From NCBI RefSeq assembly GCF_014195655.1, contig NZ_JACICD010000001.1:410682-474681 (forward strand): 64,000 nt of DNA, written 5' to 3'. Numbering within the stretch: position 1 is the stretch's first letter; each line of letters starts with the position of its first letter. Shown here one piece after another: positions 3,531-23,086 of the stretch. Made by a program: the position numbers and the translations under genes. This DNA comes from Ancylobacter tetraedralis. GTDB lineage: Bacteria; Pseudomonadota; Alphaproteobacteria; Rhizobiales; Xanthobacteraceae. Below the pieces are notes generated by a model that was not told where the DNA came from, searched no databases, and saw only the letters and a program-made list of their open reading frames with translations.

Positions 3531-4085
3531 ATGGCTCAGGATGAACCGGCCATCTCGCCGGCGGAGCTCAGCGAGGCGCGGCGTCTCTATGAAGAGACCG
3601 ACGCACCGGTGGCGGAGATTGCAAAGCTGCTCGGCGTCACCGGGCCGGGTGTCTATCGCCAGGCGAGCCGGCGCGGCTGGAAGCGCCGGAGGCCCGCGCG
3701 GGCGACGGCCGTTCCGCCCGCCCGTCCGGCCCCGCGCTCGCCCGCCGCCGCGGCGGGGCGCACGGCTCGCACCGGCCGCCGCCGGGCCGTGCCGCGCGGC
3801 CAGCTGATCACCCGGCTGGTCAAGCGGATCGAGAAGGAGATCGCCGCCGTGGAGCGGCTGATCGCCCGGGTGGGCCGCGAGCGTCCCTCGGACGGCGTGG
3901 CCGAGACCGAGCGGGCGGCCCGCACCCTTGCCATTCTCGTGCGTTCGTTGCGCGAACTCGCGGCGCTGGAACGCGCCGAACCTGAGGGAGACGAGGATGA
4001 CGCCGAGCTGCGCGATGCCGACGCCTTCCGACGCGAGCTTGGCGAAACACTTGAGCGCGTGCTGGCAGCAGGGAAGCCTGCCTGA
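3531..4085 (+). CDS. GTA gp1: small terminase subunit
   Basis: First structural gene of the RcGTA-like cluster. The N-terminal 45 residues form a helix-turn-helix (ELSEARRLYEETDAPVAEIAKLLG, then GVTGPGVYRQASRRGW), the DNA-binding part of TerS in RcGTA-type elements. Then come a Pro/Ala/Arg-rich linker (about 50-90) and a C-terminal helical region (RLVKRIEKEIAAVERLI) suited to oligomerisation. The ATG at 3531 opens MAQDEPAISPAEL. The end overlaps the large terminase gene by about 89 bases in another frame. Confidence 0.8.
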   Translation: MAQDEPAISPAELSEARRLYEETDAPVAEIAKLLGVTGPGVYRQASRRGWKRRRPARATAVPPARPAPRSPAAAAGRTARTGRRRAVPRGQLITRLVKRIEKEIAAVERLIARVGRERPSDGVAETERAARTLAILVRSLRELAALERAEPEGDEDDAELRDADAFRRELGETLERVLAAGKPA

Positions 4086-5373
4086 TCTGCTCGCCGCACT
4101 GGAGGCCGACACGGCGGAATGGCTGCTGCACCACTGGCCGCTGATCGGCCGGCCGGCGCAGCATCCCCCCGGCGCGGCGCAGGGTGGCGGCGACTGGCTC
4201 ACCTGGCTGGTGCTGGGCGGGCGCGGCGCCGGCAAGACCCGGGCCGGTTCCGAATGGGTGCGCGCGCTCGCGCTGGGATTGGGCGGCCCGCTGATGGGCC
4301 CGCCGGCCGGGCGCATCGCCCTGGTGGCGGAGAGCCTCGCGGATCTGCGCGAGGTGATGGTGGAAGGGGTGTCGGGCATCCTCGCCGTGCACCCGCGCCG
4401 CGAGCGTCCCAACTGGGAGCCGACGCGCCGGCGCCTGGAATGGCCGAACGGCGCGGTGGCGCAGGGCTTTTCCGCCGATGATCCCGAGAGCCTGCGCGGC
4501 CCCCAGTTCGATGCCGCCTGGTGCGACGAACTGGCCAAGTGGCGCTATGCGCAATCGACCTTCGACATGCTGCAATTCGGCCTGCGCCTCGGCCGGCGCC
4601 CGCGCCAGATGGTGACGACCACGCCCCGGCCGACCAGCCTGATCCGCGCCCTGCTGGCGGATCCGCGCACGGCGGTGACGCGGATGGGCACGGCGGAAAA
4701 CGCCGCCCATCTCGCGCCGACCTTTCTCGAAACCGTGGTCGGCCGCTATGCCGGCACGCGGCTGGGCCGGCAGGAACTGGACGGCGAACTGATCGAGGAC
4801 CGCGACGACGCCTTGTGGAATCGCGCGGCGATCGAGGCTGCGCGGGTCGCCGTGGCACCGCCGCTGGTCCGGCTGGTGGTGGCGGTCGATCCGCCGGCCT
4901 CGGCGCAGCGCCATGCCGATGCCTGCGGCATCGTCGCCGCCGGGATCGACCGCGACGGCCTCGTGCATGTGCTGGCCGACGAGAGCGCGCAGGGGCTGAC
5001 GCCGAACGGCTGGGGCGGAAGGGCGATCGGCCTGTTCCACCGGCTGGAGGCGGATCGGGTGGTGGTCGAGGTCAATCAGGGCGGGGACATGGTGCGGACC
5101 ATTCTGGCGGGCATCGATCCCGCCGTGCCGGTCACGGAAGTGCGCGCCACGCGGGGAAAATGGCTGCGCGCCGAGCCGGTAGCCGCGCTCTATGAGCAGG
5201 GCCGCGTGCGCCATGCCGGGGCCTTCCCGGCACTGGAGGACGAGATGTGCGATTTCGGCCCCGAGGGCCTGACCAGCGGCCGCTCGCCCGACCGGCTCGA
5301 CGCCCTGGTCTGGGCCATCACCGCCCTGGCGCTCGGCCCGCGCGAGGCCGCGCCGCGGGTGCGGCGGATCTAG
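3997..5373 (+). CDS. GTA gp2: large terminase (DNA-packaging ATPase/nuclease)
   Basis: Packages host DNA into GTA heads and cuts it. Walker A is VLGGRGAGKTRAGSEW (about residue 70), Walker B is FDAAWCDELAKW, and the C-terminal RNase-H-like nuclease opens with VVAVDPPAS. About 458 residues, normal for the GTA large subunit. I chose the ATG at 3997 because GAGGGAGACGAGG lies just before it; the ATG at 4015 is an alternative. In both cases translation starts inside gp1. About 205 bases of non-coding DNA follow before the portal gene, unlike the tight packing further on. Confidence 0.9.
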   Translation: MTPSCAMPTPSDASLAKHLSACWQQGSLPDLLAALEADTAEWLLHHWPLIGRPAQHPPGAAQGGGDWLTWLVLGGRGAGKTRAGSEWVRALALGLGGPLMGPPAGRIALVAESLADLREVMVEGVSGILAVHPRRERPNWEPTRRRLEWPNGAVAQGFSADDPESLRGPQFDAAWCDELAKWRYAQSTFDMLQFGLRLGRRPRQMVTTTPRPTSLIRALLADPRTAVTRMGTAENAAHLAPTFLETVVGRYAGTRLGRQELDGELIEDRDDALWNRAAIEAARVAVAPPLVRLVVAVDPPASAQRHADACGIVAAGIDRDGLVHVLADESAQGLTPNGWGGRAIGLFHRLEADRVVVEVNQGGDMVRTILAGIDPAVPVTEVRATRGKWLRAEPVAALYEQGRVRHAGAFPALEDEMCDFGPEGLTSGRSPDRLDALVWAITALALGPREAAPRVRRI

Positions 5374-5578
5374 CACGACCGCGCCGCCGTCCTCCCGCAG
5401 GACGTCGTGATGGCCGGGCTTCCCGGCTCCCATACCTTTCCATCGCGTTCTGGCAGCGGCGGGATCGCGGGACGGCGCCGCGCGGCGGACGGTTCCGGCG
5501 CGCGCTTCGCTTGGCCGGGACGACGGCGGGACAGCCGCTGCCGGCATGACAGCCTTCTTCGAATTCAGGAGCCCGTTC
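5374..5578 (+). other. Spacer between large terminase and portal
   Basis: About 205 bases without a convincing gene. It contains facing copies of a GGCCGGG/CCCGGC-type motif (ATGGCCGGGCTTCCCGGC near 5410 and TTGGCCGGGACGACGG near 5511), like the extragenic palindromic sequence common in Hyphomicrobiales. An in-frame ATG at 5546 could extend the portal by 11 residues. Confidence 0.4.
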
Positions 5579-6745
5579 ATGAAGCTCTTCTCCTTCCGGC
5601 GCCCGGTGGTTCCGCCGGAGGCCAAGGCCTCGCGCACGCAGTCGCTTGTCGCGCTCATCGGCGGGCACCGGCCGCAATGGACACCGCGCGACTATGCGGC
5701 GCTGGCGCGCGAGGGCTACCAGCGCAACGCCGTGGCGCATCGTTGCGTGCGGCTGGTCGCCGAGGCGGTGGGGCAGGTGAGCTTCACCCTGCTGGAGGGT
5801 GGGCGCGAAATCACCGCCCATCCGCTGACCGATCTCCTCGCTCGTCCCAATGCGCGCCTTTCCGGCGCCGGCCTCATGGAGGCGCTGGCGGCGCATCTGA
5901 TGATCGCCGGCAATGCCTATGTCGAGGCGGTAGCGCTCGGCGGCGAGCTGCGCGAGCTGCACGTGCTGCGCCCCGACCGCATGCGCGTCGTGCCGGGCGT
6001 GGATGGCTGGGCGGAGGCCTACGAATACAGCGTCGGCGGGCGCTCGGTGCGTTTCGTGCAGGACGGGGCGGGGGCTGGCGGTATCGCGCCGATCCTGCAT
6101 GTGGCGCTGTTCAACCCGCTCGACGACCATTACGGCGCCCCGCCGCTGGAGGCGGCGCAGGTGGCGCTGGACCTGCACAATGCCGCCGGCGCCTGGAACA
6201 AGGCGCTGCTGGACAACGCGGCCCGCCCCTCCGGGGCGCTGGTCTATGGTGGGGCGGGCAACCTCTCCGACGAGCAGTTCGAGCGGCTGAAGGAAGAGCT
6301 GGAGGCGAATTTCTCCGGCCCCGCCAATGCCGGCCGCCCGCTTCTGCTCGATGGCGGGCTCGACTGGCGCCCGCTCTCGCTCTCGCCGAAGGACATGGAC
6401 TTCCTGGAGGCCAAGAACGCCGCGGCGCGCGAGATCGCGCTCGCCTTCGGCGTGCCGCCGATGATGCTGGGCATCCCCGGGGACGCCACCTACGCCAATT
6501 ATGCCGAGGCCAGCCGCGTGCTGTGGCGCCAGACCGTGCTGCCGCTGGCGCGCCGGCTGGGCCAGGAACTGGCGGCATGGCTGGCGCCGGCCTATGGCGC
6601 CGCCCCGCTGGCCCTCGAGCCCGACCTCGATGCGATCGAGGCGCTGGGCGCGGAACGCGAGGCGCTGTGGCGGCGGGTGAACGAGGCCACCTTCCTCACC
6701 GAGGACGAGAAGCGCCGCGCGGTGGGCTATGGCGCGCGCGAGTAG
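5579..6745 (+). CDS. GTA gp3: portal protein
   Basis: A phage portal protein of the HK97/RcGTA family, 388 residues. It forms the dodecameric ring at the head vertex through which DNA enters and leaves. Recognisable stretches are AVAHRCVRLVAEAVGQ, HPLTDLLARPNARLSG, LMIAGNAYVEAVAL, DNAARPSGALVYGG and AFGVPPMMLGIPGDATYANYAEA. I use the ATG at 5579 (MKLFSFRRPV), the usual start of the family. Confidence 0.92.
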   Translation: MKLFSFRRPVVPPEAKASRTQSLVALIGGHRPQWTPRDYAALAREGYQRNAVAHRCVRLVAEAVGQVSFTLLEGGREITAHPLTDLLARPNARLSGAGLMEALAAHLMIAGNAYVEAVALGGELRELHVLRPDRMRVVPGVDGWAEAYEYSVGGRSVRFVQDGAGAGGIAPILHVALFNPLDDHYGAPPLEAAQVALDLHNAAGAWNKALLDNAARPSGALVYGGAGNLSDEQFERLKEELEANFSGPANAGRPLLLDGGLDWRPLSLSPKDMDFLEAKNAAAREIALAFGVPPMMLGIPGDATYANYAEASRVLWRQTVLPLARRLGQELAAWLAPAYGAAPLALEPDLDAIEALGAEREALWRRVNEATFLTEDEKRRAVGYGARE

Positions 6746-6770
6746 CGCCCCGCCGCGAAGGGACACGCCC

Positions 6771-6959
6771 ATGCAGACCCTGATCGAGGCCTTCGCGGCC
6801 AAGGCGGACCTCGCCCATCTCGCCTTGCTGATGTGGGCGCTCGGCGCCTCCGCGCTGGCCATGGCGGCGATGCGCGAACTCTCCCGCGCGGTGCGGCGCT
6901 TCGACGATTTCGTGCGCGAGATCGCGCGCTTCAACGCCCTGTTCGGAGACGAGAAATGA
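6771..6959 (+). CDS. Small membrane protein in the gp3.5 position
   Basis: A 62-residue protein with one likely membrane helix (HLALLMWALGASALAMAAM, residues 14-32) and a charged C-terminal helix (RELSRAVRRFDDFVREI). It is preceded by GAAGGGA and ends in an ATGA overlap with the next gene. RcGTA has a small ORF (gp3.5) between portal and protease; this matches by place and size, but I see no sequence signature that proves equivalence. Confidence 0.6.
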   Translation: MQTLIEAFAAKADLAHLALLMWALGASALAMAAMRELSRAVRRFDDFVREIARFNALFGDEK

Positions 6960-7719: not shown

Positions 7720-7795
7720 ACCTCTTCCTCACCAATCCTCGTTCCGGGCGCTCGCGGCCGGGATGACGCAACCATTTTGCAACAGGGACAGCACC

Positions 7796-9046
7796 ATGGA
7801 TCTCAGCAATCCCGCACCCGAAGTGAAGTCCGCCGGCCCGGAAGTCTCCGCCGCCTTCGAGGACTTCATGAGCGCCTTCGAGGCGTTCAAGGACGCCAAT
7901 GACCAGCGGCTCGGCGAGCTGGAGCGGCGGGGCGGCGATGCCCTGACGCGTGACAAGGTCGAGCGTATCAATGCCGCGCTCGACGCGCAGAAGTCGCTCA
8001 TCGACGAACTGGTGCTGAAGACCCGCCGGCCGGCGCTGGGCAGCGGCGGCGACGGCTTCGTCAGCGACCTGGCGGCGCGCGAGCACAAGGCGGCGTTCGA
8101 CGCCTATGTGCGCACCGGCGAGGCGGCGGGGCTCAAGCGGCTGGAGGCCAAGGCGCTCTCGGCCGGCGTCGCCACCGATGGCGGCTATGTCGTGCCGAAC
8201 GAGACCGAGCGGGAAATCGGCAAGCGCCTCGCGGCGCTCTCGCCGATCCGCGCCATCTCGGATGTGCGGGTGATTTCCTCCGGCACTTACAAGAAGCCGT
8301 TCATGACCTCCGGCCCGGCGGTGGGCTGGGTGGCGGAGACGGCGGCGCGCAGCCAGACCGCGAGCCCCGTGCTGGACGAACTCACCTTCCCGGCGATGGA
8401 AATCTACGCCATGCCGGCCGCGACGCAGACCCTGCTGGACGATGCGGCGGTGAATATCGACGAGTGGCTGGCCATCGAGGTCGAGGCCGCCTTCGCGGCG
8501 CAGGAGGGCACCGCCTTCGTCACCGGCGACGGCTCGGGCAAGCCGAAGGGTTTCCTCGCCTATGACACGGTGGCCGAGGGCGCCTGGACCTGGGGCAAGC
8601 TCGGCTTCGTCGCCACCGGCGAGGCGGGCGACTTTCCTTCCGCCAACCCCGCCGACCCGCTGGTCGACCTCGTCTATGCCCTGAAATCCGGCTACCGGCA
8701 GAATGGCAGCTTCGTCATGAGCCGGCGCACGCAGGGCGCCGTGCGCAAGCTGAAGGACGAGAACGGCCAGTATCTATGGGCGCCGCCCACCGCCCCGGGC
8801 GCGCCCCCTCACCTGCTCGGCTTCCCGGTCTTCGAGGCGGAAGACGTGCCGGCCATCGCCGCCAACAGCCTGTCCATCGCCTTCGGCGACTTCAAGCGCG
8901 GCTATCTCGTGGTGGATCGCGCCGGCGTGCGCGTGCTGCGCGATCCCTACTCCGCCAAGCCCTATGTACTGTTCTACATCACCAAGCGGGTGGGCGGCGG
9001 CGTGCAGGATTTCGACGCGATCAAGCTGCTGAAGTTCGCGGCGTAG
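7796..9046 (+). CDS. GTA gp5: major capsid protein (HK97 fold)
   Basis: 416 residues. The N-terminal ~110 residues form a helical scaffold-like delta domain (AFEDFMSAFEAFKDANDQRL, then LTRDKVERINAALDAQKSL) that the gp4 protease would remove. The HK97-fold body follows from about GVATDGGYVVPNETE, with ITKRVGGGVQDFDAIKLLKFAA at the end. I use the ATG at 7796 (MDLSNPAPEV) preceded by AGGGA, not the earlier in-frame ATG at 7763. Confidence 0.92.
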   Translation: MDLSNPAPEVKSAGPEVSAAFEDFMSAFEAFKDANDQRLGELERRGGDALTRDKVERINAALDAQKSLIDELVLKTRRPALGSGGDGFVSDLAAREHKAAFDAYVRTGEAAGLKRLEAKALSAGVATDGGYVVPNETEREIGKRLAALSPIRAISDVRVISSGTYKKPFMTSGPAVGWVAETAARSQTASPVLDELTFPAMEIYAMPAATQTLLDDAAVNIDEWLAIEVEAAFAAQEGTAFVTGDGSGKPKGFLAYDTVAEGAWTWGKLGFVATGEAGDFPSANPADPLVDLVYALKSGYRQNGSFVMSRRTQGAVRKLKDENGQYLWAPPTAPGAPPHLLGFPVFEAEDVPAIAANSLSIAFGDFKRGYLVVDRAGVRVLRDPYSAKPYVLFYITKRVGGGVQDFDAIKLLKFAA

Positions 9047-9087: not shown

Positions 9088-9831
9088 CTACTTCCCCATC
9101 GCCCGCAGCGTCGCGTCGATCCAGGGGCGCTGCGGGCCGACTAGCGTCGCGCCGGTGACGCCACCGCAGCCGCGCGCGCCGCCGGCGGCGGTCGACCAGC
9201 CGATGATGCCGGCCACCGCGCCGTCCAGCAGCACCGGCCCGCCGCTGTCGCCGGTGCAGCCGCCGGCGGCGGCCGACCCTGTTGAATTATCTGCCGAGAG
9301 GCGGACCATGATGCCGCCGGTCGTGCCGATGCTCGGCAGATCGACCATGCGCAGCGTGCCGGCCGATTTGCCATCGCCGTCCTTCACCACCCCGAAGCCG
9401 GCCAGGGTGAAGGCGGTGCGCCGCGCCGGCAGCGCGATCTCGCCGGTTAGCGTCGCCGGGCGGAAATCGCCCGGCAGCGCGGCCGAGAGCTTTACCAGCG
9501 CGAGATCGGGCGTCGGGCGTCGGGTGTCGAAGGATGCCGGATCGAAACCCGGATGCACGGCGATGCGGCTGGCCGGGATCAGCCGCGGGCCGGCCGGCTC
9601 GAACACCACGACCGCATAATCCGCCGCCGGCTGCACGCAGTGCGCGGCGGTGAGCAGGACGTTCGGCGCCAGCACCACGCCGGTGCAGGAGGCGCCGCGC
9701 GTCGAGACGATCATCGCCGTTTCCGCCTTGAGATCGGCGTCCGCCGGCCGCCCGCCAACGATGGCGAAGGCGGGGGCACTGAGAAGGCCGAAGGCGAGGG
9801 CGGCGAGGGCGAGGCTTCGAACGGGGCGCAT
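9088..9831 (-). CDS. Secreted trypsin-like serine protease inserted in the GTA cluster
   Basis: A 247-residue S1-family protease on the strand opposite to the GTA genes. Residues 1-23 are a signal peptide (MRPVRSLALAALAFGLLSAP). The mature protein begins IVGGRPAD, like activated trypsins, and carries the full triad: His in LTAAHC, Asp in PDLALVKL, Ser in GDSGGPVLLDG. Three pairs of cysteines could form disulfides. It converges on the capsid gene and has its own 130-base upstream region before gp6. RcGTA has no such gene. Codon use looks like its neighbours. Its role in particle or host is unknown. Confidence 0.88.
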   Translation of the reverse strand: MRPVRSLALAALAFGLLSAPAFAIVGGRPADADLKAETAMIVSTRGASCTGVVLAPNVLLTAAHCVQPAADYAVVVFEPAGPRLIPASRIAVHPGFDPASFDTRRPTPDLALVKLSAALPGDFRPATLTGEIALPARRTAFTLAGFGVVKDGDGKSAGTLRMVDLPSIGTTGGIMVRLSADNSTGSAAAGGCTGDSGGPVLLDGAVAGIIGWSTAAGGARGCGGVTGATLVGPQRPWIDATLRAMGK

Positions 9832-9963
9832 CGGTCATTCCGGCTGGACGGTCGGTCCGTTCTGGCGGGGCGCGCGCGCCGCGTCAATCGCCCGCGTCGT
9901 CCATGCCTTTGCCCACGCCGCGCGCCGCCCGCGTCCCTTTTGCTATGCAGCCCAGGAGCCGCC

Positions 9964-10530
9964 ATGCCCGCCCTTCTTCTCGCCGGCCCGCCGGCCGAGC
10001 CGCTCAGCCTTGCCGAGGCGAAGACCTATCTGCGCGTCGACCATGACGCGGAGGATGCGCTCATCGCCTCGCTGATCACCGCCGCGCGCGCCACGGTCGA
10101 GGCGCTGACCCGCCGCGTGCTGATCGACCAGAGCTGGCGCCTGGTGCGCGACACCTGGCCGGTTTCCGGGCTCATCGCGGTGCCGGTGAACCCGTTGCGC
10201 GAGATCGTCGCCGCGCATGTGGTGGATGCCGCCGGCGCCGAGATCGAGGTGTCGCTGGCGGCCTTCACCGCCAATATCGCGCGGCTGCCGGGGCTGATCC
10301 GGGTCGACCGCGCGGCCGTGCCGGCGCCGGGACGCGCGGTCGCCGGCATCGCCATCGACGTGATCGCCGGGCACGGGCCGGAGGTCGACCATGTGCCTTC
10401 CTCGCTGATCGAGGCGGTACGGCTGGTGCTGGCGCATTTCTACGAGCATCGCGACGTGCCGGGGCCGGGCGCGGCCTTTCCCGCGAGCCTCGACGCGCTG
10501 GTGGCGCCGTTCCGGGTGACGCGGCTATGA
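9964..10530 (+). CDS. GTA gp6: head-tail connector (adaptor) protein
   Basis: 188 residues of the phage gp6-like connector family: PLSLAEAKTYLRVDHDAEDALI at the N-terminus and helical TAARATVEALTRRVLIDQSW, ending in SLIEAVRLVLAHFYEHRD and DALVAPFRVTRL, the usual C-terminus. It docks under the portal. Preceded by CAGGAG. It restarts the plus-strand run after the protease insertion and overlaps gp7 by ATGA. Confidence 0.9.
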   Translation: MPALLLAGPPAEPLSLAEAKTYLRVDHDAEDALIASLITAARATVEALTRRVLIDQSWRLVRDTWPVSGLIAVPVNPLREIVAAHVVDAAGAEIEVSLAAFTANIARLPGLIRVDRAAVPAPGRAVAGIAIDVIAGHGPEVDHVPSSLIEAVRLVLAHFYEHRDVPGPGAAFPASLDALVAPFRVTRL

Positions 10531-10847
10531 GCGCCATCGGGCAGATGCGCCACCGGCTGGTGCACGAGACCCCGGTGGAAATGCCGGACGGGGCAGGCGG
10601 GGTGACGCGCAGCTTTCTCGCCGTCGATGCGCTGTGGGGGGCGATCGAGACCAGTGCTTCCCCCACCGAGATCGCCGACCGGCCGGGAGCGGTGCTCACC
10701 CACACGGTGACGCTGCGCGCGCCGGCGACGGTGCAGCCCGGCGACCGTCTGCGGCTCGGCGCCCGACATTTCCTCGTCGACGCCGTGAGCGACCCGGAAG
10801 GGCGCGGGCGCCGGCTGGTCTGCGACTGCCGGGAGGAAGCGCCATGA
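10527..10847 (+). CDS. GTA gp7: head-closure / head-tail adaptor protein
   Basis: 106 residues of the SPP1 gp16-like head-tail joining family: GQMRHRLVHETPVE, GAGGVTRSF, LWGAIET, and GDRLRLGARHFLVDAVSDP followed by RRLVCDCREE. It seals the connector. ATGA overlaps at both ends. Confidence 0.85.
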   Translation: MSAIGQMRHRLVHETPVEMPDGAGGVTRSFLAVDALWGAIETSASPTEIADRPGAVLTHTVTLRAPATVQPGDRLRLGARHFLVDAVSDPEGRGRRLVCDCREEAP

Positions 10848-10924
10848 GATTCGACGTGAGGCTGAAGGGACTGGCGGCGATGGTTCGCCGGCTCGCGCAG
10901 CTCGGCCCGAGGAGGCGCCGATGA
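10844..10924 (+). CDS. 26-codon ORF, probable remnant of an HK97 gp10-like tail-completion gene
   Basis: MRFDVRLKGLAAMVRRLAQL resembles the first 20 residues of HK97 gp10-family proteins (typically about 130-170 residues), which in many phages sit right after the head-closure gene. Here it stops after 26 codons, yet it keeps ATGA overlaps with gp7 and gp8, so it may serve only to pass ribosomes along. RcGTA itself lacks a full version. Confidence 0.4.
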   Translation: MRFDVRLKGLAAMVRRLAQLGPRRRR

Positions 10925-11325
10925 GCCCGGCCAATGCGCTGCGGGCGGCGGTCCACGACGCGCTCAAAGCCGATGCGCCGCTGATCGCCGCTCTCGGCGG
11001 GCCGCGCATCTATGACGTGCCGCCGAGCGCGCCGGAATTTCCCTATGTCACGCTGGGCGAGGCGCAGCTTATCGACTGGTCGACCGCCACCGAGGCGGGA
11101 CAGGAGCATCGGCTCACGCTCTTCGCCTGGTCGCGGCAGGGCGGGCATGGAGAGGCGCACGCCATCGCCCACCAGCTGCAGCAGGCGCTACACGACGCGC
11201 CGCTGGAACTCGCCGGCCATCGGCTGGTGAACCTGCGCTTCAGCAATGCCGAGATCCGCCGCGAGGCGGGCGGGCGCACCTATCGCGCGCTGGTGCGCTT
11301 TCGCGCGGTGACAGAAGCAGATTGA
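10921..11325 (+). CDS. GTA gp8: tail terminator (DUF3168)
   Basis: 134 residues matching DUF3168: LRAAVHDALKADAPLIAALGGPRIYDVPPS, FPYVTLGEAQ, EHRLTLFAWSRQGGHGEAHAI, RLVNLRFSNAEIRREAGGRTYRALVRFRAVTE. It caps the head-proximal end of the tail tube. Translationally coupled to the preceding mini-ORF. Confidence 0.88.
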   Translation: MSPANALRAAVHDALKADAPLIAALGGPRIYDVPPSAPEFPYVTLGEAQLIDWSTATEAGQEHRLTLFAWSRQGGHGEAHAIAHQLQQALHDAPLELAGHRLVNLRFSNAEIRREAGGRTYRALVRFRAVTEAD

Positions 11326-11955: not shown

Positions 11956-11966
11956 GGGAGGGTGCC

Positions 11967-12326
11967 ATGGCGAACCGCCATCGCGGCGAGATTTCCGCCG
12001 AACTCGACGGACGCGTGCGCACGCTGGTGCTGACGCTCGGCGCGCTGGCGGAACTGGAGGACGCTTTCGCCGCCGGCGACCTGGTGGCGCTGACCGAGCG
12101 CTTCGGCTCCGGCCGGCTCGCCGCGCGCGACGCCATCCGCATCATTGCGGCCGGGCTGCGCGGGGCGGGCGAGGGGGTGAGCGAGGAGGATGTGGCGCGC
12201 ATGACCACCCCGGGCGGGGCGGCCGGCTTCGCGCGCATCGTCGGCGAGCTGATCACCGCCACCTTCGGCGCCGCGGAGGGCGCGCCACCCGACCCTTTGG
12301 AACGGGCGCCCCGCGCGGCGGGGTGA
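11967..12326 (+). CDS. GTA gp10: tail assembly chaperone
   Basis: 119 residues of the GTA-gp10 family: NRHRGEISAELDGRVRTLVLTLGALAELEDAFAAGDLVAL, then LAARDAIRIIAAGLRGAG. In siphophages this pair of genes helps the tape measure guide tail assembly. ATG at 11967 chosen, preceded by GGGAGGG; an earlier GTG at 11952 would add five residues. Confidence 0.85.
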   Translation: MANRHRGEISAELDGRVRTLVLTLGALAELEDAFAAGDLVALTERFGSGRLAARDAIRIIAAGLRGAGEGVSEEDVARMTTPGGAAGFARIVGELITATFGAAEGAPPDPLERAPRAAG

Positions 12327-14688: not shown

Positions 14689-15126
14689 ATGCCGATGGAC
14701 GACACGCGCGCCCGGATTGTCGCCGAGGCGCGCCACTGGATCGGCACGCCCTATCTCCACCGCGCTTCCTGCCGGGGGCATGGCACCGACTGCCTCGGGC
14801 TGGTGCGCGGGGTGTGGCGGGCGGTGATCGGCGCGGAGCCCGAGGGTCTGCCTTCCTATGCGCCCGACTGGGCCGAGGCGACGCGCGCCGAACAGATGGC
14901 GCAGGCGGCGCTGCGGCACATGCGGGCGGTCCCGCTCGCCAATATGACGCCCGGCGACGTGCTGCTGTTCCGCTGGCGGGCGCATCTGCCGGCCAAGCAC
15001 GCGGCGATCCTGGTGAGCGCGGAACGCATGGTGCACGCCCATGACGGGGCGGCGGTGGCCGAGGTGTTCCTCGCGCCCTGGTGGCGGCGCCACCTCGCCC
15101 ACGCCTTCGCCTTTCCGGGTGCGTGA
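14689..15126 (+). CDS. GTA gp14: NlpC/P60 cell-wall peptidase
   Basis: 145 residues. The catalytic Cys is in GTDCLGLVRGVW and the His in PAKHAAILV, the NlpC/P60 arrangement. In the particle it would sit in the baseplate and cut recipient peptidoglycan peptides. Two bases separate it from gp13. Confidence 0.92.
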   Translation: MPMDDTRARIVAEARHWIGTPYLHRASCRGHGTDCLGLVRGVWRAVIGAEPEGLPSYAPDWAEATRAEQMAQAALRHMRAVPLANMTPGDVLLFRWRAHLPAKHAAILVSAERMVHAHDGAAVAEVFLAPWWRRHLAHAFAFPGA

Positions 15127-15313: not shown

Positions 15314-18300
15314 ATGGCCACTCTCATTCTCGGCACGCTCGGCGGCACGATCGGCGGGGCGTTGTTCGGGCCCCTTGGTGCTGTCGCCGGTCGGGCGCTT
15401 GGTGCGCTGGGCGGGGCGGCGCTCGATAGCCGGCTGACCGGTGGCGGCCGCCGTGTCACGGGCCCCCGCCTTACCGATCTCGGCACCATGACCTCCAGCG
15501 AGGGCGCGCCATTGCCGCGGCTCTACGGCCGCGCCCGGCTGGCGGGGCAGGTGATCTGGGCGGCGTCGGTGGAGGAGGTGGTTTCCACCCAGACCCAGTC
15601 CTCCGGCGGCAAGGGCGGCGGCGCGCGCTCCTCGACCACAACCTACAGCTACTTTGGCAGCTTCGCGGTCGGGCTCTGCGAGGGGCCGGTGAGCCGGATC
15701 GGCCGCATCTGGGTGGATGGCAAGCCGCTGGACCGGCAGGGGATCACGTTGCGCCTGCATCATGGCGGCGACGACCAGCTGCCGGACCCGCTGATCGAGG
15801 CGCGCGAGGGCGCGGCGCCCGGCTATCGCGGCCTTGCCTATGTGGTGTTCGAGCGCCTGCCGCTCGCCAATTACGGCAACCGCCTGCCGCAGGTGACGGT
15901 CGAACTGGTGCGCGTGGTGGGAGAACTGGAGGGTCGGCTCAAGGCGGTGACGCTCATCCCCGGCGCCACCGAGTTCGGCTATGACACGCAGGAAGTGAAG
16001 CGGGTCATCCGACCCGGCACCTATCAGCCGGAGAACCGGCATGTGGAGACCGCCGACAGCGATCTCGACGCCGCGCTCGATGAGTTGCAGGAACTTTGCC
16101 CCCAACTGGAGCGCGTGGCTCTCGTCGTCGCCTGGTTCGGCACGGATCTGCGCGCCGGCGAGTGCCGCATCGAGCCGGGCGTGGAGCGGCGCGACAAGGC
16201 GACCTCCGCGCTCGCGGCGCTCGCCTGGCGGGTGGCCGGGCGCACCCGCACGGATGCCTATCTCGTTACCCAGATCGACGGGCGGCCGGCCTATGGCGGA
16301 ACGCCCTCCGACGAGACGGTGCGCCGCGCGATCGAGGGACTGAGGGCGCGCGGCCTCAAGGTGAAGTTCTATCCCTTCGTGATGATGGACATCGCGCCCG
16401 GCAATACGCGGCCCGACCCGTGGAGCGGGGGCGCCTCGCAGCCGACCTATCCCTGGCGCGGGCGCATCACCTGCCATCCCGCGCCGGACCGGCCCGGCTC
16501 GCCGGACGGCACGGCGATGGCGGGCACGCAGGTGGCGGCGCTGTTCGGCAGCGCTTCCGCCGCGCATTTCACGGTGGCGGGCGGGGTGGTGAATTATGCG
16601 GGGCCGGCGGAATGGACGCTGCGCCGCATGGTGCTTCACTACGCCAAGCTCGTGGAACTCGCCGGCGGGGTGGAAGCCTTCATCATCGGCTCGGAAATGG
16701 CGGCGCTGACGCGCGTGCGCTCGGCCCCCGGCGTCTATCCCGCGGTGGCACAGTTCGCCTCGCTCGCCGGCGAAGTGCGCAGCATGCTGCGCGCCGGGAC
16801 GAAGATCGGCTACGCCGCCGACTGGACCGAATATGGCAGCCATGTGCGCGAGGGCGGGGCGGAGCTGCGCTTTCCGCTCGATCCGCTCTGGGCCTCGCCG
16901 GCGATCGATTTCATGGGCATCGACTGGTATCCGCCCATCGCCGACTGGCGCGATGGCGACGCCCATCTCGACGCGGCCGCGCATGCGAGCGGCTATGACC
17001 GGGCCTATCTCGCCGGCAATGTCCATGGCGGGGAGGGCTTCGACTGGTATTATCCGGATGATGTCGCCCGCAACGCGCAGGCGCGGCAACCCATCACCGA
17101 CGGAGCCTATGGCGAGCCCTGGGTGTTTCGCCAGAAGGACGTCGCGTCGTGGTGGAGCAACGCCCATCACGAGCGGGTCGGCGGGGTGCGGATGGCCAGC
17201 CCGACCGCCTTCATGCCGGGGTCCAAGCCGGTGCGGCTGACGGAATTCGGCTGTGCCGCCGTGGACAAGGGGGCGAACCGCCCGAGCGTGTTCCCCGATC
17301 CGAAATCGGTCGAGAACGGCCTGCCGCCCTTCTCCAACGGCCAGCGCGACGACCTGATGCAGCGCCGCCATCTTGAGGCGACGCTGGACGGCTTCGCACA
17401 GGAGGACGCCAATCCCCTCGCGTCGCTGCCGGGCGGGCGGATGATCGATCCGGCGGCGATCTATGCCTGGAGCTGGGACGCGCGGCCCTTTCCGATCTTC
17501 CCGCTCGCCCGCGACATCTGGGCGGATGGCGCCAACTGGCGCACCGGGCACTGGCTGAGCGGCCGGCTGGGCGCCGCTCCGCTCGCCGAGCTAGGCGCGC
17601 GGCTGGCGCAGGATTTCGGCGCCAGCCTCGACGCCACGCAGTTGCGCGGGGTAATCGACGGCTATGTGGTCGACCGGCCGATGACGGCCCGCGCGGCGCT
17701 GGAGCCGCTGGCGCAGGCCTTCGGCTTCGATCTGATGGAGAACGGGGAGGGGCTCGCGCTGCGCCCGCGCGGCGGACGTCTTGTGGCGACGCTTTCGGAC
17801 GAGGATGTTGTCGCCGGCGAGGACATTGCCGCGCCCAGCTTCACCCGAGCCAGCGAGGACGAACTGCCGCGCAGCGTCACCCTCGGCTTCACGGACGGTT
17901 TGAACGATTATCGCCGTGCCACCGCCGCCTCGCGCCGGCTGGCCGGCCGGGCGCGGGCCGAGACGGCGCTGGACCTCGCGATGATCGCCGATAGCGGTCT
18001 CGTCGCCGGCCTTGCCGAGATGGGGTTGCAGGATGCCTGGGCAGGCCGCGAGAGCGGGCGCCTCACCCTGCCGCCCTCGCGCCTCGCCCTGGAGCCGGGC
18101 GACGTGGTGCGGATCGACCGCGACGGTCGGCAGCTTCTGGTGGAAATCACCGCCATCGAGGATCGCGAGGCGCGCACCGTTTCCGTGCGCGGCATCGACC
18201 CGGCGGTCTTTAGCCTCGCGGTGCGAACCGAGCGCGCGCCGCCCGTCACCGTGCCGGTGAGCCACGGCCCGCCCGAACTGGCGCTGCTGGGATTGCCGGC

Positions 18301-19201
18301 GGTGCTGGACACCAGTCCGACAGCGTTGGCCTGGCTGGCCGCTTTCGCCTCTCCCTGGCCGGGCGCCATGGCGGTGTGGCGGCAGGTGGACGGGGCGAGC
18401 TTCGAGCGGGTGGCGACGCTGGCCGCGCCGGCGGTGATGGGCGAGACGCTGAACGAGCTGGCGCCTGGTGCACCCTGGCGCTGGCATCGCGGCCCGGTGC
18501 TCGAGGTTGAACTCTATGGTGGCCTGCTGGCGGCCGCGAGCGAGGAGGCGGTGTTGGGCGGAGCCAACGCGCTGGTGCTGCTCGCGCCCGACGGGAGCGT
18601 CGAACTTCTGCAGTTCGCGGAAGCGCAACTGATCGGCGAGCGACGCTGGCGGCTGTCGGGGCTGTTGCGCGGCCAGCTCGGCACCGAGGCGCAGGCCCGT
18701 GCCATCTGGCCGGCGGGCACGCGTCTCGTGCGGCTCGACGCGAACCTGACGGCGGCGGTGAGCGGGCTGGATCTGCTCGGCCGCGGCATCGCTCTGCGCG
18801 TCGGGCGGGCGGATCGCGACCATGGCGACGACGGGGTCGCCGAGATCGTGGGAAGCGTTGGGCCGGCCGCGCTGCGGCCGCTGGCGCCGGTGCAGCCGCG
18901 TGCGCGCCGTGTCGCGGAGGGCGTCGCGCTGAGCTGGATCCGGCGCACGCGGATCGGCGGCGATTCCTGGGATCTCAACGAGGTGCCGCTCGGCGAAGAG
19001 ACCGAGGCCTACCGCATCGACCTGATTGAGGCCGGTGCGGTGGTGCGCAGCGTCATCACCGCCACGCCGGCTTGGCTTTACGCGACGGCGGACGAACTGG
19101 CCGATTTCGGCGCGCCGCAGCCCTTCCTCGATGTGCGCATCGTCCAGCTCTCGGCCAGCGTCGGCCCCGGCTGGCCGCTGGAAGTGCGCCTTCCGCTCTG
19201 A
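15314..19201 (+). CDS. GTA gp15: host-specificity / megatron baseplate protein
   Basis: 1295 residues, about the size of RcGTA gp15. The N-terminus has a hydrophobic Gly/Ala helix (LGTLGGTIGGALFGPLGA) found in this family, then a phage-tail_3-like domain (LGTMTSSEGAPLPRLYGRARLAGQ). The middle, about residues 430-790, is the GTA TIM-barrel-like domain (FIIGSEMAALTRV, DFMGIDWYPPIADWRDG, TEFGCAAVDKGANRPSVF). The C-terminal part holds tail-fibre-base domains. It contacts the recipient surface and may cleave glycans. Confidence 0.93.
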   Translation: MATLILGTLGGTIGGALFGPLGAVAGRALGALGGAALDSRLTGGGRRVTGPRLTDLGTMTSSEGAPLPRLYGRARLAGQVIWAASVEEVVSTQTQSSGGKGGGARSSTTTYSYFGSFAVGLCEGPVSRIGRIWVDGKPLDRQGITLRLHHGGDDQLPDPLIEAREGAAPGYRGLAYVVFERLPLANYGNRLPQVTVELVRVVGELEGRLKAVTLIPGATEFGYDTQEVKRVIRPGTYQPENRHVETADSDLDAALDELQELCPQLERVALVVAWFGTDLRAGECRIEPGVERRDKATSALAALAWRVAGRTRTDAYLVTQIDGRPAYGGTPSDETVRRAIEGLRARGLKVKFYPFVMMDIAPGNTRPDPWSGGASQPTYPWRGRITCHPAPDRPGSPDGTAMAGTQVAALFGSASAAHFTVAGGVVNYAGPAEWTLRRMVLHYAKLVELAGGVEAFIIGSEMAALTRVRSAPGVYPAVAQFASLAGEVRSMLRAGTKIGYAADWTEYGSHVREGGAELRFPLDPLWASPAIDFMGIDWYPPIADWRDGDAHLDAAAHASGYDRAYLAGNVHGGEGFDWYYPDDVARNAQARQPITDGAYGEPWVFRQKDVASWWSNAHHERVGGVRMASPTAFMPGSKPVRLTEFGCAAVDKGANRPSVFPDPKSVENGLPPFSNGQRDDLMQRRHLEATLDGFAQEDANPLASLPGGRMIDPAAIYAWSWDARPFPIFPLARDIWADGANWRTGHWLSGRLGAAPLAELGARLAQDFGASLDATQLRGVIDGYVVDRPMTARAALEPLAQAFGFDLMENGEGLALRPRGGRLVATLSDEDVVAGEDIAAPSFTRASEDELPRSVTLGFTDGLNDYRRATAASRRLAGRARAETALDLAMIADSGLVAGLAEMGLQDAWAGRESGRLTLPPSRLALEPGDVVRIDRDGRQLLVEITAIEDREARTVSVRGIDPAVFSLAVRTERAPPVTVPVSHGPPELALLGLPAVLDTSPTALAWLAAFASPWPGAMAVWRQVDGASFERVATLAAPAVMGETLNELAPGAPWRWHRGPVLEVELYGGLLAAASEEAVLGGANALVLLAPDGSVELLQFAEAQLIGERRWRLSGLLRGQLGTEAQARAIWPAGTRLVRLDANLTAAVSGLDLLGRGIALRVGRADRDHGDDGVAEIVGSVGPAALRPLAPVQPRARRVAEGVALSWIRRTRIGGDSWDLNEVPLGEETEAYRIDLIEAGAVVRSVITATPAWLYATADELADFGAPQPFLDVRIVQLSASVGPGWPLEVRLPL

Positions 19202-19223: not shown

Positions 19224-19913
19224 ATGAGCGAGACGACACCGTTGCTCGCGCTGCCGCTGCTCGCGGCGGCGCAGGCGCAAAAACACGTCACCCATAACGA
19301 GGCGTTGCTGCAGCTCGACGCTCTCGCGCAGCTGGCCGTGATCGACCGGGTGCACACGACGCCGCCCGGCGGAGCGGTGGCGGGCGACCGCTACCTCATC
19401 GCGCCTGGTGCGGGCGGCGACTGGGCCGGGCGCGACGGACAGATCGCGCTGCTGGACGGAGGCTGGACCTTTCTCGTGCCGCGGGCGGGCTGGCGCCTGT
19501 TCGTCGCCGCCGAGCGCACGACGCTGGTCCATACGGGGGCGGGCTGGGCGGATCTTCTCGCCGGCACGCCCTCCGGCGGCACCGTGGCGCTGCGCGCCGT
19601 GGAGCAGGAACTGGTGCTGAGCGGGGCCTTTGTCACCTCCTCCATCGTCATTCCCGACCGCGCCATCTGCCTCGCCGTCGCCAGCCGCACGGTCCAAGCC
19701 GTCACCGGTGCCACCGCCTACGAGGTGGGCATCGCCGGTGACACCTCGAAATTCGGCGGCCTGCTGAGCGTCGCGGTCGGCGCGAGCAATGTCGGCGTGA
19801 TCGGCCCGCAGGCCTTCTACGCCGCTACGCCGCTGCGCGTGAGCGCGCTGGGCGGCGCTTTCACCGGCGGGCGCGTGCGCCTCGTCCTGTTCTTCCTCGC
19901 CTTCGGCATCTGA
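19224..19913 (+). CDS. DUF2793 tail-associated protein
   Basis: 229 residues. The DUF2793 signature is in the N-terminal half: LPLLAAAQAQKHVTHNEALLQLDALAQL, then DRYLIAPGAGGDWAGRDGQIAL and AGWRLFVAAERT. This family commonly follows gp15 in GTA and phage clusters and is thought to be part of a fibre or spike. The C-terminal ~100 residues (from about ELVLSGAFVTSSIVIPDR) look like a separate beta-rich domain. Start at ATG 19224, 22 bases after gp15. Confidence 0.88.
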   Translation: MSETTPLLALPLLAAAQAQKHVTHNEALLQLDALAQLAVIDRVHTTPPGGAVAGDRYLIAPGAGGDWAGRDGQIALLDGGWTFLVPRAGWRLFVAAERTTLVHTGAGWADLLAGTPSGGTVALRAVEQELVLSGAFVTSSIVIPDRAICLAVASRTVQAVTGATAYEVGIAGDTSKFGGLLSVAVGASNVGVIGPQAFYAATPLRVSALGGAFTGGRVRLVLFFLAFGI

Positions 19914-19929: not shown

Positions 19930-20235
19930 ATGCCCTATGATTCCGCCAAGGACCCCTGGCGCGGCAGCGCCGTCTCCCCCACCAGCCTCGGCCGCAGCGG
20001 CGAGGCGGTCGTGCCGAACGACACCGCAGATTTCCCGCGCTACGCCCGCGTCCGCGTGTTCGCGCCCACGACGTTGGACAGCGCGCAGGTCTGCATCCTT
20101 CCCGTGTGGAATGAGGATGACGAGCCCATCGTCCTGTCGCTGCCGATCGGCTTGCCCATCGTCCTCGAATTCATCGTCCGGCGCGTGCTGGCGACCGGCA
20201 CGAGCGCCGGCCTCCACATCCACACGGTGATCTGA
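19930..20235 (+). CDS. Spike-base-like protein (RcGTA Rcc01079/GhsA type)
   Basis: 101 residues, all beta by appearance. The layout GEAVVPNDTADFPRYARVRVF, a middle strand region, LPIGLPIVLEFIVRRVLATG and a final GTSAGLHIHTVI resembles the small head-spike-base proteins of which R. capsulatus Rcc01079 is the type. In RcGTA these bind the head and carry the spike for recipient capsule. In R. capsulatus the spike genes are in a locus apart from the main cluster, here they are attached to it. Assignment by pattern, not by alignment. Confidence 0.6.
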   Translation: MPYDSAKDPWRGSAVSPTSLGRSGEAVVPNDTADFPRYARVRVFAPTTLDSAQVCILPVWNEDDEPIVLSLPIGLPIVLEFIVRRVLATGTSAGLHIHTVI

Positions 20236-20274: not shown

Positions 20275-20448
20275 ATGAGCGCACTCGGACCCGGCCTGTC
20301 GCCGGGCGGGTGGGGGCGCCGCGCGCTCCCACGGCTCCGTCACGGCTACGTCGTCCTCCGCGGCAAGGCGGCCGACGGCACGCATTTCCCCGTCCGCGCC
20401 CGGCGCGACGGCACCACCCTTCTCGTCCTGATAGGAAAGGTATTCTGA
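20275..20448 (+). CDS. Small hypothetical protein between spike base and SGNH hydrolase
   Basis: 57 residues, Arg/Gly-rich start, then beta-like LRHGYVVLRGKAADGTHFPV and TTLLVLIGKVF. It has a good ribosome site (GGAGG seven bases upstream) and its stop overlaps the next start (TGATG). Unrecognised; by place it may link the spike base and the hydrolase or be a chaperone. Confidence 0.5.
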   Translation: MSALGPGLSPGGWGRRALPRLRHGYVVLRGKAADGTHFPVRARRDGTTLLVLIGKVF

Positions 20449-21734
20449 TGTCCGGAGAAATCGATCTGGCCGTCCCCCGCACGCTGAGCCATGCCATCGG
20501 CCATGATGCGCAGGGCTATTTCGGCCGGCAGGCCACCGACCGGCTGGTGCGCTACGCCCAGAGCCACGCGGTGCCGTGGGAGCGGGCCGGCGCTGTCGTC
20601 GACATCGACTTCCTGAACGACAGAGCGAGCTGGTACGGGCTCAAATTCGCGTCGATCGACCGGTTCCTCGCCGCCATCGGCGGCACGGTGCTCTCGGGCA
20701 CGGGTGCGAGCCGGGTAATCCGCCTGCCGTGGACGGATAATTCGGTCTATGTGGTCGCCGAGTTCATCAACTCCGCGGATGCCTGGGCGAGCGGCTCTCG
20801 CTATCCCTACGAGTTTTATTCCAACGATAACAACCGGATGACCGCATCGCGGAACACGTCGGGGTTTCTGGGTGTGGCGGCGGTCACCGCGGGCACGACA
20901 TCGTACCTGCCGGCCGGGTTCGGCCCCATCGGCGGGCCGATCCTGCGGGTCGCGGCCTCCTATGGCGCCACCATGCGCGGCGCCTATAATGGACAGGATG
21001 CCCAATTGTCCACCAACTGGCCCGGGGCGCCGGTGGTCACCAATCTCGTTGTTGGCGGGGACCGCAACGGCGCGAATTTCGCCTCGCCGTTCCGCCGGTT
21101 TACCATCTACGCCGATGCCGTCACCGATACGGCTCGCATCAAGGCGGATAGCCTCCCGGTGTGGGACTGCTGGGTGGACGGCGACAGCTATGGCGGCGGC
21201 GCGGGCAACCCCGAAATCGGCTTCGGGCGCTCGCTCGCGCTGCTCGGCTGGACGCCGTACATGACGGCGGTCGGCGGCTCGACGCTGGAGCAGATCAAGA
21301 CGCGCATGCTGGCGGCGCCGGCCTTCGCGAAGGCCTTGCCCACCCTCTGGTGGGACGGCGACAATAACAGCTTCGACGCGACGACCGCCAATGATGTCGC
21401 CCGCCATCAGGCGATCATCGCGGCGCTGGGCCACACGAACTACCTGATCATCCCCACCGCCAAGCGTGAGGGGCAGTCGGCGTCGGCACAGACGGCCGTC
21501 ACCGCGCTCACGGCCGCGCTGCTCGCGGCCTATCCCGGCAAGGTGCTGCCGTGCATGCCCTATCTGCTCTCGCTGTCCAACGGCACCACGGATGTGACCG
21601 CCGTCGCCAACGGCAACGTGCCGCCCTCGGCGCTCATGGTCGACGGCGTGCACCTCGCCGCGCCGGCCATGACCGGGATCGCGGCCCTGGTCGACAGCGC
21701 CATGCGTGGCTTCGGGTGGGGCATGGCGGCGTGA
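20448..21734 (+). CDS. SGNH/GDSL-type hydrolase, probable spike or fibre esterase
   Basis: 428 residues. The N-terminal ~230 residues (ending near PFRRFTIYADAVTDTARIKAD) look like a beta-sandwich with no clear family. The C-terminal ~200 residues have the SGNH blocks: WDCWVDGDSYGGG (block I Ser), AVGGSTLEQI (block II Gly), WWDGDNNSFD (block III Asn) and MVDGVHLAAPA (block V Asp-x-x-His). Such esterases in phage spikes deacetylate capsule or LPS. No signal peptide, so a particle component fits better than a secreted enzyme. Coupled to the preceding gene by TGATG. Confidence 0.75.
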   Translation: MSGEIDLAVPRTLSHAIGHDAQGYFGRQATDRLVRYAQSHAVPWERAGAVVDIDFLNDRASWYGLKFASIDRFLAAIGGTVLSGTGASRVIRLPWTDNSVYVVAEFINSADAWASGSRYPYEFYSNDNNRMTASRNTSGFLGVAAVTAGTTSYLPAGFGPIGGPILRVAASYGATMRGAYNGQDAQLSTNWPGAPVVTNLVVGGDRNGANFASPFRRFTIYADAVTDTARIKADSLPVWDCWVDGDSYGGGAGNPEIGFGRSLALLGWTPYMTAVGGSTLEQIKTRMLAAPAFAKALPTLWWDGDNNSFDATTANDVARHQAIIAALGHTNYLIIPTAKREGQSASAQTAVTALTAALLAAYPGKVLPCMPYLLSLSNGTTDVTAVANGNVPPSALMVDGVHLAAPAMTGIAALVDSAMRGFGWGMAA

Positions 21735-21940: not shown

Positions 21941-22642
21941 ATGCCCCGCACGATCAATGCGGCTGGCCTCGCGCTGATTCAGCAGTGGGAGGGCAAGCGG
22001 CTTAACGCCTACAAGGACCCGGTCGGCATCTGGACGATCGGCTATGGTCATACCGATGCCGCCGGCCCGCCCCGCGTCACGCCTGGGTTCGCCATCACCG
22101 AGGAGGACGCCACCGCCATCCTGCGCCGCGACCTCGGCCAGTACGAGGCGGCGGTGCGGCAGGCGGTGACGGTCGAGATCACCGACAACCAGTTCGCCGC
22201 GCTGGTGTCGTTCTGCTTCAATGTCGGCCCGGCGAATTTCCGCAAATCGACGCTGCTGAAGAAGCTGAACGCCGGCGATCCTGCCAGCGTGCCGCGTGAA
22301 CTGATGAAGTGGAACAAGGCTGGCGGCAAGGCGCTGCCGGGCCTCACTAACCGGCGCGCGGCCGAGGCCGGGCTGTGGGCGAAGGGCGCATTCGTCGCCT
22401 CCAACTATGTCGAGCCGGCGCCCAAGCCGCGCGCCACCGGCAGCACCGAGGGCAAGGGCACGGCGACGGCGAGCGTTGGCGTGCTCGGCACGGCCGCCTC
22501 CGACGCCGCGCAGCAGCTGGCGCCGCTGACGGAGGTTTCGACCGTGCTGAAATACGCCTTCGTCGCGCTGACCGTGATCGGCATCGGCGTCGCGCTCTAT
22601 GGCGTGTGGAAGCGCAGCCGGTCGGATGTGGGGCTGGCATGA
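21941..22642 (+). CDS. GH24 endolysin (lysozyme) with C-terminal membrane anchor
   Basis: 233 residues. The T4/P21-type lysozyme core is residues 5-145: the catalytic Glu in IQQWEGKRLNAYKDPVG, then IWTIGYGHT, and NQFAALVSFCFNVGPANF. It ends with LTNRRAAEAGLW. An Ala/Thr-rich linker (about 158-190) leads to one membrane helix (YAFVALTVIGIGVALYGVW, about 203-221). There is no N-terminal signal-arrest segment, so release may need the neighbouring membrane protein. Cleaves peptidoglycan glycan chains during release of GTA particles. ATGA overlap with the next gene. Confidence 0.88.
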   Translation: MPRTINAAGLALIQQWEGKRLNAYKDPVGIWTIGYGHTDAAGPPRVTPGFAITEEDATAILRRDLGQYEAAVRQAVTVEITDNQFAALVSFCFNVGPANFRKSTLLKKLNAGDPASVPRELMKWNKAGGKALPGLTNRRAAEAGLWAKGAFVASNYVEPAPKPRATGSTEGKGTATASVGVLGTAASDAAQQLAPLTEVSTVLKYAFVALTVIGIGVALYGVWKRSRSDVGLA

Positions 22643-22968
22643 GCTGGATCCTCGACCTCATCCCCTGGTGGTTATGGGCGCTGGCGGGTGGCGCCCTGCT
22701 GGCCGCGACGTGGCAGGTCTGGCTGCCCTGGTGGCTCGCCCTGCCCAAGCCGATCCGCACCGGCCTCGCCATCCTCGCGACGGGAGGCCTCGCCTATCTC
22801 GCCGGTCGCAACAAAGGCGCGGCCGGCGCCCTCCAGCGTGCCCGGGAACAGGAGCAAGCCCATGCCGACGACATCCGCAAAAGGGGCGCTGATGCGCGCG
22901 CTCGCTCTGATCGCGACGCTGTGTCTGGCCGGCTGCGCGACGACGACGGGTTCCGGCGTGACCGGTGA
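22639..22968 (+). CDS. Membrane protein of the lysis cassette (Rz-like inner spanin or holin)
   Basis: 109 residues. Two close hydrophobic segments (LIPWWLWALAGGALLAATWQVW, written as residues 7-28 in part, and IRTGLAILATGGLAYLAG, about 40-56), then a highly charged helix (ALQRAREQEQAHADDIRKR) to the end. A membrane anchor plus coiled coil with a lipoprotein gene hidden in another frame is the Rz/Rz1 plan; two membrane segments also allow a holin. Confidence 0.6.
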   Translation: MSWILDLIPWWLWALAGGALLAATWQVWLPWWLALPKPIRTGLAILATGGLAYLAGRNKGAAGALQRAREQEQAHADDIRKRGADARARSDRDAVSGRLRDDDGFRRDR

Positions 22969-23086
22969 AGCCGTGTGCGAGACCTTTCGGCCGATCTTCT
23001 GGACGGCCGATGACTCGGACGAGACGGTCCGGCAGGCCAAGGCGCACAACGCGGTCGGCCGCGAGATCTGCGGCTGGCGCGGCTGA
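22892..23086 (+). CDS. Small lipoprotein overlapping the Rz-like gene (o-spanin candidate)
   Basis: 64 residues. MRALALIATLCLAGC is a complete lipoprotein signal with lipobox L-A-G-C; the mature part (ATTTGSGVTGEAVCETFRPI, then WTADDSDETVRQAKAHNAVG) is short and soluble. The first 77 bases overlap the preceding gene in a different frame, as Rz1 does with Rz. An ATG at 22862 is an alternative start. Not proline-rich, unlike many o-spanins. Confidence 0.6.
   Translation: MRALALIATLCLAGCATTTGSGVTGEAVCETFRPIFWTADDSDETVRQAKAHNAVGREICGWRG

Follow-up and report, generated by a model that had tools for sequence, protein, structure and literature searches.

An RcGTA-type gene transfer agent locus in Ancylobacter tetraedralis with a probable exchangeable slot for adhesion and lysis genes

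The locus and its genes

The stretch of DNA considered here (the window) spans 64,000 nucleotides of the 5.03-Mb genome of Ancylobacter tetraedralis (G000:C1:410682-474681), and all feature coordinates given below are window positions. At 3531-19201 it holds head-tail genes that Pfam and NCBIfam searches place in the order of RcGTA, the gene transfer agent (GTA) of Rhodobacter capsulatus, followed on the same strand by a run of genes with predicted roles in adhesion and lysis. Judging from gene content and genome comparison, we regard it as probable that the locus encodes a GTA of the RcGTA type, passed on vertically, whose adhesion and lysis genes lie in an exchangeable slot, and that this slot has recombined here with a prophage. 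The core genes and those lying among them are:

3531..4085, +, gp1, putative small terminase, from its position, a weak PHROG 1206 match (E 0.0048) and its retention across the genus
3928..5373, +, gp2, large terminase (Terminase_6N/6C); start codon uncertain, overlap with gp1
5546..6745, +, gp3, portal (Pfam/NCBIfam; PDB RcGTA portal, E 2.8e-121)
6729..6959, +, small conserved open reading frame in the portal-protease gap, present in the genus and several other families; one predicted transmembrane (TM) segment
7123..7719, +, gp4, S78 prohead protease (domain match)
7763..9046, +, gp5, HK97-type major capsid protein (domain match; PDB RcGTA capsid, E 4.9e-101)
9088..9831, -, gene of the trypsin family on the opposite strand, lying between gp5 and gp6 (PF00089, E 2.5e-22)
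9652..10530, +, gp6, head-tail connector (TIGR02215, 164.8 bits; conserved part from about 9964)
10527..10847, +, gp7, head completion protein or stopper (Phage_HCP)
10921..11325, +, gp8, tail terminator (Tail_completion_gp17)
11548..11955, +, gp9, tail tube (Phage_tail_2)
11952..12326, +, gp10, GTA-gp10 family (Phage_TAC_11)
12323..12520, +, gp10.1, tail assembly chaperone (Phage_TAC_6)
12548..13162, +, gp11, short tape measure of 204 aa (best model RcGTA_tape, 175.5 bits, below the cut-off of 220)
13163..13804, +, gp12, distal tail protein (DUF2460; TIGR02217)
13829..14686, +, gp13, hub (Phage_phiJL001_Gp84_N and Phage_BR0599)
14689..15126, +, gp14, NlpC/P60 peptidase (domain match)
15314..19201, +, gp15, megatron (GTA_TIM; GTA_megatron 1736.6 bits against a cut-off of 800; PDB RcGTA megatron, E 1.2e-296)

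An earlier note on this DNA, made from the sequence alone, had recognised a GTA locus in RcGTA order; this is borne out by the domain matches, which give gp2 to gp15 in that order, and by the matches of portal, capsid and megatron to solved RcGTA proteins. Over its best segment the megatron shares 93% identity with that of Ancylobacter amanitiformis and 68% with that of Ancylobacter sp. Lp-2. The small open reading frame at 6729..6959 has no family match in Pfam, NCBIfam or PHROG.

The interval between gp15 and a downstream response regulator gene, which we define as the slot, is occupied and closed as follows:

19224..19913, +, DUF2793 gene, perhaps a tail-fibre adaptor (PF10983; some PHROG tail-fibre families)
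19930..20235, +, probable head-spike base, Rcc01079-like (NCBIfam model and profile searches)
20448..21734, +, SGNH-like receptor-binding or esterase fibre (conserved blocks; DNA common to a resident prophage)
21941..22642, +, GH24 endolysin with a C-terminal TM segment (PF00959; BgtA model 240 bits, below the cut-off of 315)
22639..22968, +, i-spanin-like protein (weak match to PHROG 1026, E 0.0087; DNA 86.8% identical to the prophage)
22892..23086, +, o-spanin-like protein, its lipobox recognised by eye (PHROG 1275, E 4.7e-14), overlapping the i-spanin-like gene
23255..25311, +, response regulator with histidine kinase; these fixed genes of the host close the slot on its 3' side

The linked endolysin and the spanin-like pair had been pointed out before, and both stand. 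The GH24 assignment of the endolysin is clear and the NCBIfam BgtA cut-off is not reached, hence its filing as GH24 only; the i-spanin-like protein has an N-terminal half that is hydrophobic by eye, with no TM segment above the prediction threshold. The earlier naming of an SGNH hydrolase remains tentative: the protein shows GDS, G, DNN and DGVH blocks that are invariant in 5 relatives, but it has no Pfam match to SGNH, no match in the phage collection searched and a poor AlphaFold model (pLDDT 40.6; that of the spike base, at 54.6, is poor too). A 13-kb IMG/VR contig (IMGVR_UViG_2827996806_000001) carries this fibre gene at 100% identity, and this GTA is thus probably counted as a virus in that database. 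The DUF2793 gene and the antisense trypsin-family gene had previously gone unmentioned.

A fixed site and a vertically inherited core

Among 25 genomes of the genus that were searched, 22 possess the cluster and one (G013) retains a relic at the same site, in which gp1, gp2 and gp6-gp9 survive together with a fibre, a GH108 endolysin and an o-spanin. In 21 of the 22 loci the cluster is followed by the response regulator and kinase (the G006 contig ends first), a dcd-like gene is found upstream in 16, and the regulator and kinase are likewise downstream in 9 of 11 loci from eight other families, the exceptions being G026, on a short contig, and G028. Distances among five core proteins follow those of the flanking pair closely (Mantel r 0.98 for 27 loci and 0.94 for 21 genus loci, with none of 5000 permutations as high). 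Relative to the sister genome G016, omega is 0.09-0.20 in 8 of the 9 complete structural genes tested (gp10 stands at 0.37), 0.18 over the final 915 codons of gp15, and 0.14-0.16 for fibre and endolysin.

Because the cluster sits at one fixed place, in the genus as in other families, and diverges in step with the adjacent host genes, we read its core as vertically inherited, and the best reading of the locus from these comparisons is that of a host-owned RcGTA-type element. The same two observations speak against the earlier suggestion of a GTA still close to a phage. They bear equally on the alternative that the locus is a functional or recently defective prophage instead of a GTA: the structural genes are all phage-derived and IMG/VR does class the 13-kb contig with this fibre as viral, but the megatron model is matched far over its cut-off, the G013 copy has decayed in place, and the nearest tyrosine integrase lies 73 kb off. 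The absence of a linked integrase, as stated in the earlier note, was confirmed with PF00589, the one recombinase family searched: 20 matches occur in the genome, those nearest to the cluster (contig positions about 414,200-433,800) being at 340,911 and 692,724. We have rejected the prophage alternative on the fixed site, the flank-tracking divergence and the lack of a nearby tyrosine integrase, and consider it very improbable.

Several points count against vertical inheritance of a working GTA and have to be set beside this evidence. In G020 and G022 the trypsin gene stands alone at the site, with the dcd-like gene on one side and the response regulator on the other, an arrangement that suggests, but does not prove, loss of the GTA. 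The Mantel markers are adjacent flank genes only, so that the correlations are also compatible with joint transfer of the whole region, and omega rises to 0.46-0.48 for the spike base and the spanins. In G016 itself a deletion of about 1.39 kb fuses gp14 into the interior of gp15, and the GTA of this sister looks broken as assembled.

Concerning further copies and their surroundings, the match in G020 and G022 that resembles a gp6 relic is a spurious reading frame overlying the trypsin gene; at their site no GTA gene was found. The trypsin-family gene lies between the capsid and connector genes in all 22 genus loci, is also retained in the G013 relic and is the sole gene of the site in G020 and G022; no match to it was found in the 9 other-family loci compared. 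In G008 the 20 kb upstream yielded just 47 aa of gp2, perhaps interrupted by an insertion, and no gp1, while an extra GH24 endolysin gene lies some 18 kb upstream of its TIM domain. The second or sole GTA_TIM copies of G017a, G021b and G013, which are accompanied by gp12-gp15 (and gp11 in G021b) and DUF2793 only, are probably prophage relatives of the GTA tail. Beyond the kinase of the window come a glycine-zipper gene and, further on, ccmF, with a dcd-like gene upstream of the cluster; no tRNA was found in the window or in the two 20-kb stretches flanking it.

Turnover of the slot contents

Behind this stable core the position of the slot is fixed and its contents turn over, that is, the interval behaves as an exchange slot. 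Every one of the 22 genus clusters has an endolysin there, which is GH108 in 15 and GH24 in 7; the DUF2793 gene is likewise universal (22/22), and a spike base and an o-spanin accompany them in 18 and 16 loci, respectively. The fibre belongs to one common family in 13 loci (that of G001 matches an arabinofuranosidase catalytic domain, E 7.5e-8) and is of the SGNH type in 7; G011 has another pair, one member of which shows a weak GDSL match, and no fibre was found in the slot of G021a. When these states are laid on a tree of core and flank proteins (21 genus loci, leaving out G006, plus 2 outgroups), the endolysin type, GH24 and GH108 being unrelated, changes at least 3 times within the genus; for the fibre label, with absence counted as a state, the minimum is 5 changes.

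The arrangement extends well beyond the genus. GTA_TIM occurs in 109 of 150 sampled genomes of the order, and 35 of these, from 18 families, carry a GH108 or GH24 gene on the same strand within 9 kb behind gp15; a linked lysis gene is therefore a frequent feature of the order and does not distinguish this genome. This linkage was judged by a strand control, two GTA_TIM rows below the cut-off being left out: all 37 GTA_TIM-endolysin pairs within -6 to +9 kb are on the same strand, 36 with the endolysin downstream and 1 with it upstream.

For GH108 a quick tree was built from 69 domains, of which 40 are linked and 29 free; they come from 54 of the 55 search matches (a partial one, G290, was left out), 14 other genus loci and the G013 relic. 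On this tree the linked and free states must change into each other 11 times, where shuffling gives a mean of 22.3, and at least 5 of the 11 are forced by starred branches; these counts are approximate, with 29 of 66 inner branches under 80, and the free class includes three f151 genomes, whose enzyme lies about 16 kb from the TIM domain, as well as G037, where it is on another contig. The linked enzymes thus cluster, yet they intermix with free ones and seem to be of several origins; the GH108 of the resident prophage appears to group beside the linked enzymes of the genus (fork support 86).

Three observations weigh against such an exchange slot. Spanins were not found in 6 of the 22 genus loci, 74 of the 109 GTA_TIM genomes showed no GH24 or GH108 gene within 9 kb, and the GH108 tree contains a 13-row clade of linked enzymes, which suggests long vertical retention in some families.

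That clade speaks for the proposal that spike and lysis genes belonged to a single ancestral cluster, an idea already raised in the earlier note, and were scattered later in Rhodobacterales. Linkage as such may indeed be old, since the order often has an endolysin after gp15 (in 18 families), and in the family f148 a spike-base match and then a fibre occupy this position too. Against an ancestral single locus stand the turnover of the genes now in the slot and the distribution of the spike base itself: a 19-row profile run on the 150 order genomes found a base in 12, linked to GTA_TIM in 4, unlinked in 5 and without GTA_TIM in 3, and in the two genomes of the class-wide sample that were examined from other orders, base and GTA_TIM lie far apart. 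We therefore hold an ancestral single locus to be unlikely as a full account, and prefer a fixed position with changing contents.

DNA shared with a resident prophage

A plausible donor or recipient of slot genes resides in the same genome. The prophage on contig C3 has baseplate J, capsid E and GpA terminase genes (a sheath match is below the cut-off), and its fibre-lysis end consists, in order, of a spike base, an SGNH fibre, a GH108 endolysin and spanin-like genes. Between GTA and prophage, the fibre genes are 88.5% identical in nucleotides and the spanin regions 86.8%. The relationship is not uniform along the fibre gene: from 5' to 3', identity to the prophage climbs from about 0.7 to 1.0 as identity to the GTA of the sister G016 drops from 0.97 to 0.80 close to the 3' end. 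Synonymous divergence (dS) behaves in the same way: over codons 1-100 it is 0.65 against the prophage and 0.20 against the sister GTA, over codons 301-428 0.14 and 0.31, respectively. A max-chi-square value as high as that found over 190 informative sites was reached in none of 2000 permutations. In the spanin region, G000 and the prophage are 86.8% identical and G016 and the prophage 86.9%, against only 82.0% for G000 and G016.

The simplest reading of these patterns is that homologous recombination took place between the GTA and the same-genome prophage, a reading qualified by the following. The DNA comparison allows either direction, the final fibre block turns back toward the G016 GTA (0.88 to the prophage, 0.91 to the sister), and the endolysin between the shared genes is itself unshared; since the GTA has GH24 where the prophage has GH108, the cassette did not change hands in one piece. 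Contig C4 holds one more SGNH copy (L121 9666-10952, -), which is 64% identical, has a different N-terminus and lies 8-10 kb from two integrase matches.

One might argue from the DNA common to the prophage, from the high turnover and from the weaker constraint on the two spanin genes and the spike base that the core is a GTA and that the genes from spike base to spanins are a separate, functionless phage remnant alongside it. This we judge quite improbable: an endolysin occupies the same place in every one of the genus loci, the omega values of fibre and endolysin relative to the sister genome are low, the spike base is retained in most of the genus, and same-strand linkage of an endolysin recurs in 18 families.

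Spike base and fibre

The claim of a spike-base-like gene holds as probable, not proven, for 19930..20235. Its product falls just below the cut-off of the NCBIfam Rcc01079 model (E 2.3e-6; 27.8 bits against 28), and when searched alone it has no match to any solved spike base. A genus profile of 18 rows gives weak matches to one solved spike base (E 0.004) and to Rcc01079 (E 0.028), which improve to E 6.2e-6 for Rcc01079 once the base of the resident prophage is added; this strength leans on the prophage row, whose protein alone matches Rcc01079 at E 3.5e-7. A class-wide spike_base search gave 5 of 144, with a model that scores the base of this genus under its cut-off.

Whether the fibre sits on this base is a separate matter. 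The RcGTA head fibre docks through an alternating-leucine peptide, according to PMC7296036. By eye, an alternating hydrophobic peptide is present in most of the 11 N-termini viewed of the common genus fibre, and a similar one in fibres behind gp15 of two f148 genomes; the N-terminus of the SGNH fibre in this genome is without such a docking peptide by eye. Related SGNH-fibre N-termini occur in G004, G007 and G024, loci in which no spike base was detected. Given the lacking peptide and these relatives, we do not take it for certain that the SGNH fibre belongs to the head spikes; it may instead sit on the tail.

Relation to known systems

RcGTA-like clusters are widespread in Alphaproteobacteria, as stated in PMC6821227. 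The present locus resembles RcGTA in its head-tail gene order, in its closely related capsid, portal and megatron, and in a spike base that is probably homologous. PMC8601537 and PMC11409702 place the tail fibre, endolysin and holin, head spikes and GafA of R. capsulatus in four other regions, in agreement with the separate spike and lysis loci assumed in the earlier note; here, unlike in RcGTA, spike base, fibre, endolysin and spanins come after gp15. The Caulobacter crescentus agent (CcGTA) shares the RcGTA-type core cluster, and PMC13236601 describes it as without canonical holin-endolysin genes and as requiring LypABC for lysis.

The endolysin of the window resembles BgtA of the Bartonella agent (BaGTA). 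BaGTA, which is reportedly chimeric, with loci of diverse phage origin, is another type of GTA; the core here is of the RcGTA type. The C3 prophage resembles the locus in having spike base, SGNH fibre, endolysin and spanin-like genes in the same order, with DNA 87-89% identical in fibre and spanins, and differs from it in its contractile-tail and capsid-E/GpA-terminase genes and in its GH108 enzyme where the GTA has GH24. The kind of element is thus a known one, namely an RcGTA-type GTA, and what appears new from the comparison of genomes is its plasticity, that is, the exchangeable adhesion-and-lysis end. In the open-licence literature nothing was found that pairs "gene transfer agent" with Ancylobacter, for Xanthobacteraceae there was a single paper, on desalination, and no description of GTA slot exchange was found, as judged mostly on titles and the beginnings of abstracts; this is weak evidence of novelty.

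Discussion

By homology, the products of gp1-gp15 would build a small head and a siphovirus-like tail and package pieces of the chromosome, and the products of the slot behind gp15 would face outward. They comprise a probable adaptor with a probable head-spike base, a fibre for receptor binding, which may bind or deacetylate surface polysaccharide of the recipient, and an endolysin and spanins that would lyse the producer cell. Core and slot position remain fixed and the slot contents are replaced time and again, most likely from temperate phages, a source that we presume for the other species as well; in this genome there would have been homologous recombination with a contractile-tailed prophage that has a spike base of its own, the same SGNH fibre and the same spanins. 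Selection might favour such exchanges by keeping the GTA matched to the surfaces recognised by local phages. More broadly, and only tentatively, alphaproteobacterial GTAs may be half domesticated, with a frozen, host-owned core and a slot renewed by co-resident temperate phages, so that the choice of recipients would track the battle between host and phage over the cell surface.

How GTA producers lyse and how recipients are chosen is a largely open question outside Rhodobacter and Caulobacter. A slot in which endolysin and fibre turn over, and which shares DNA with a phage of the same genome, offers a testable route by which release and recipient range may evolve; slot exchange, if true, would mean that genes pass between live phages and one that has been domesticated.

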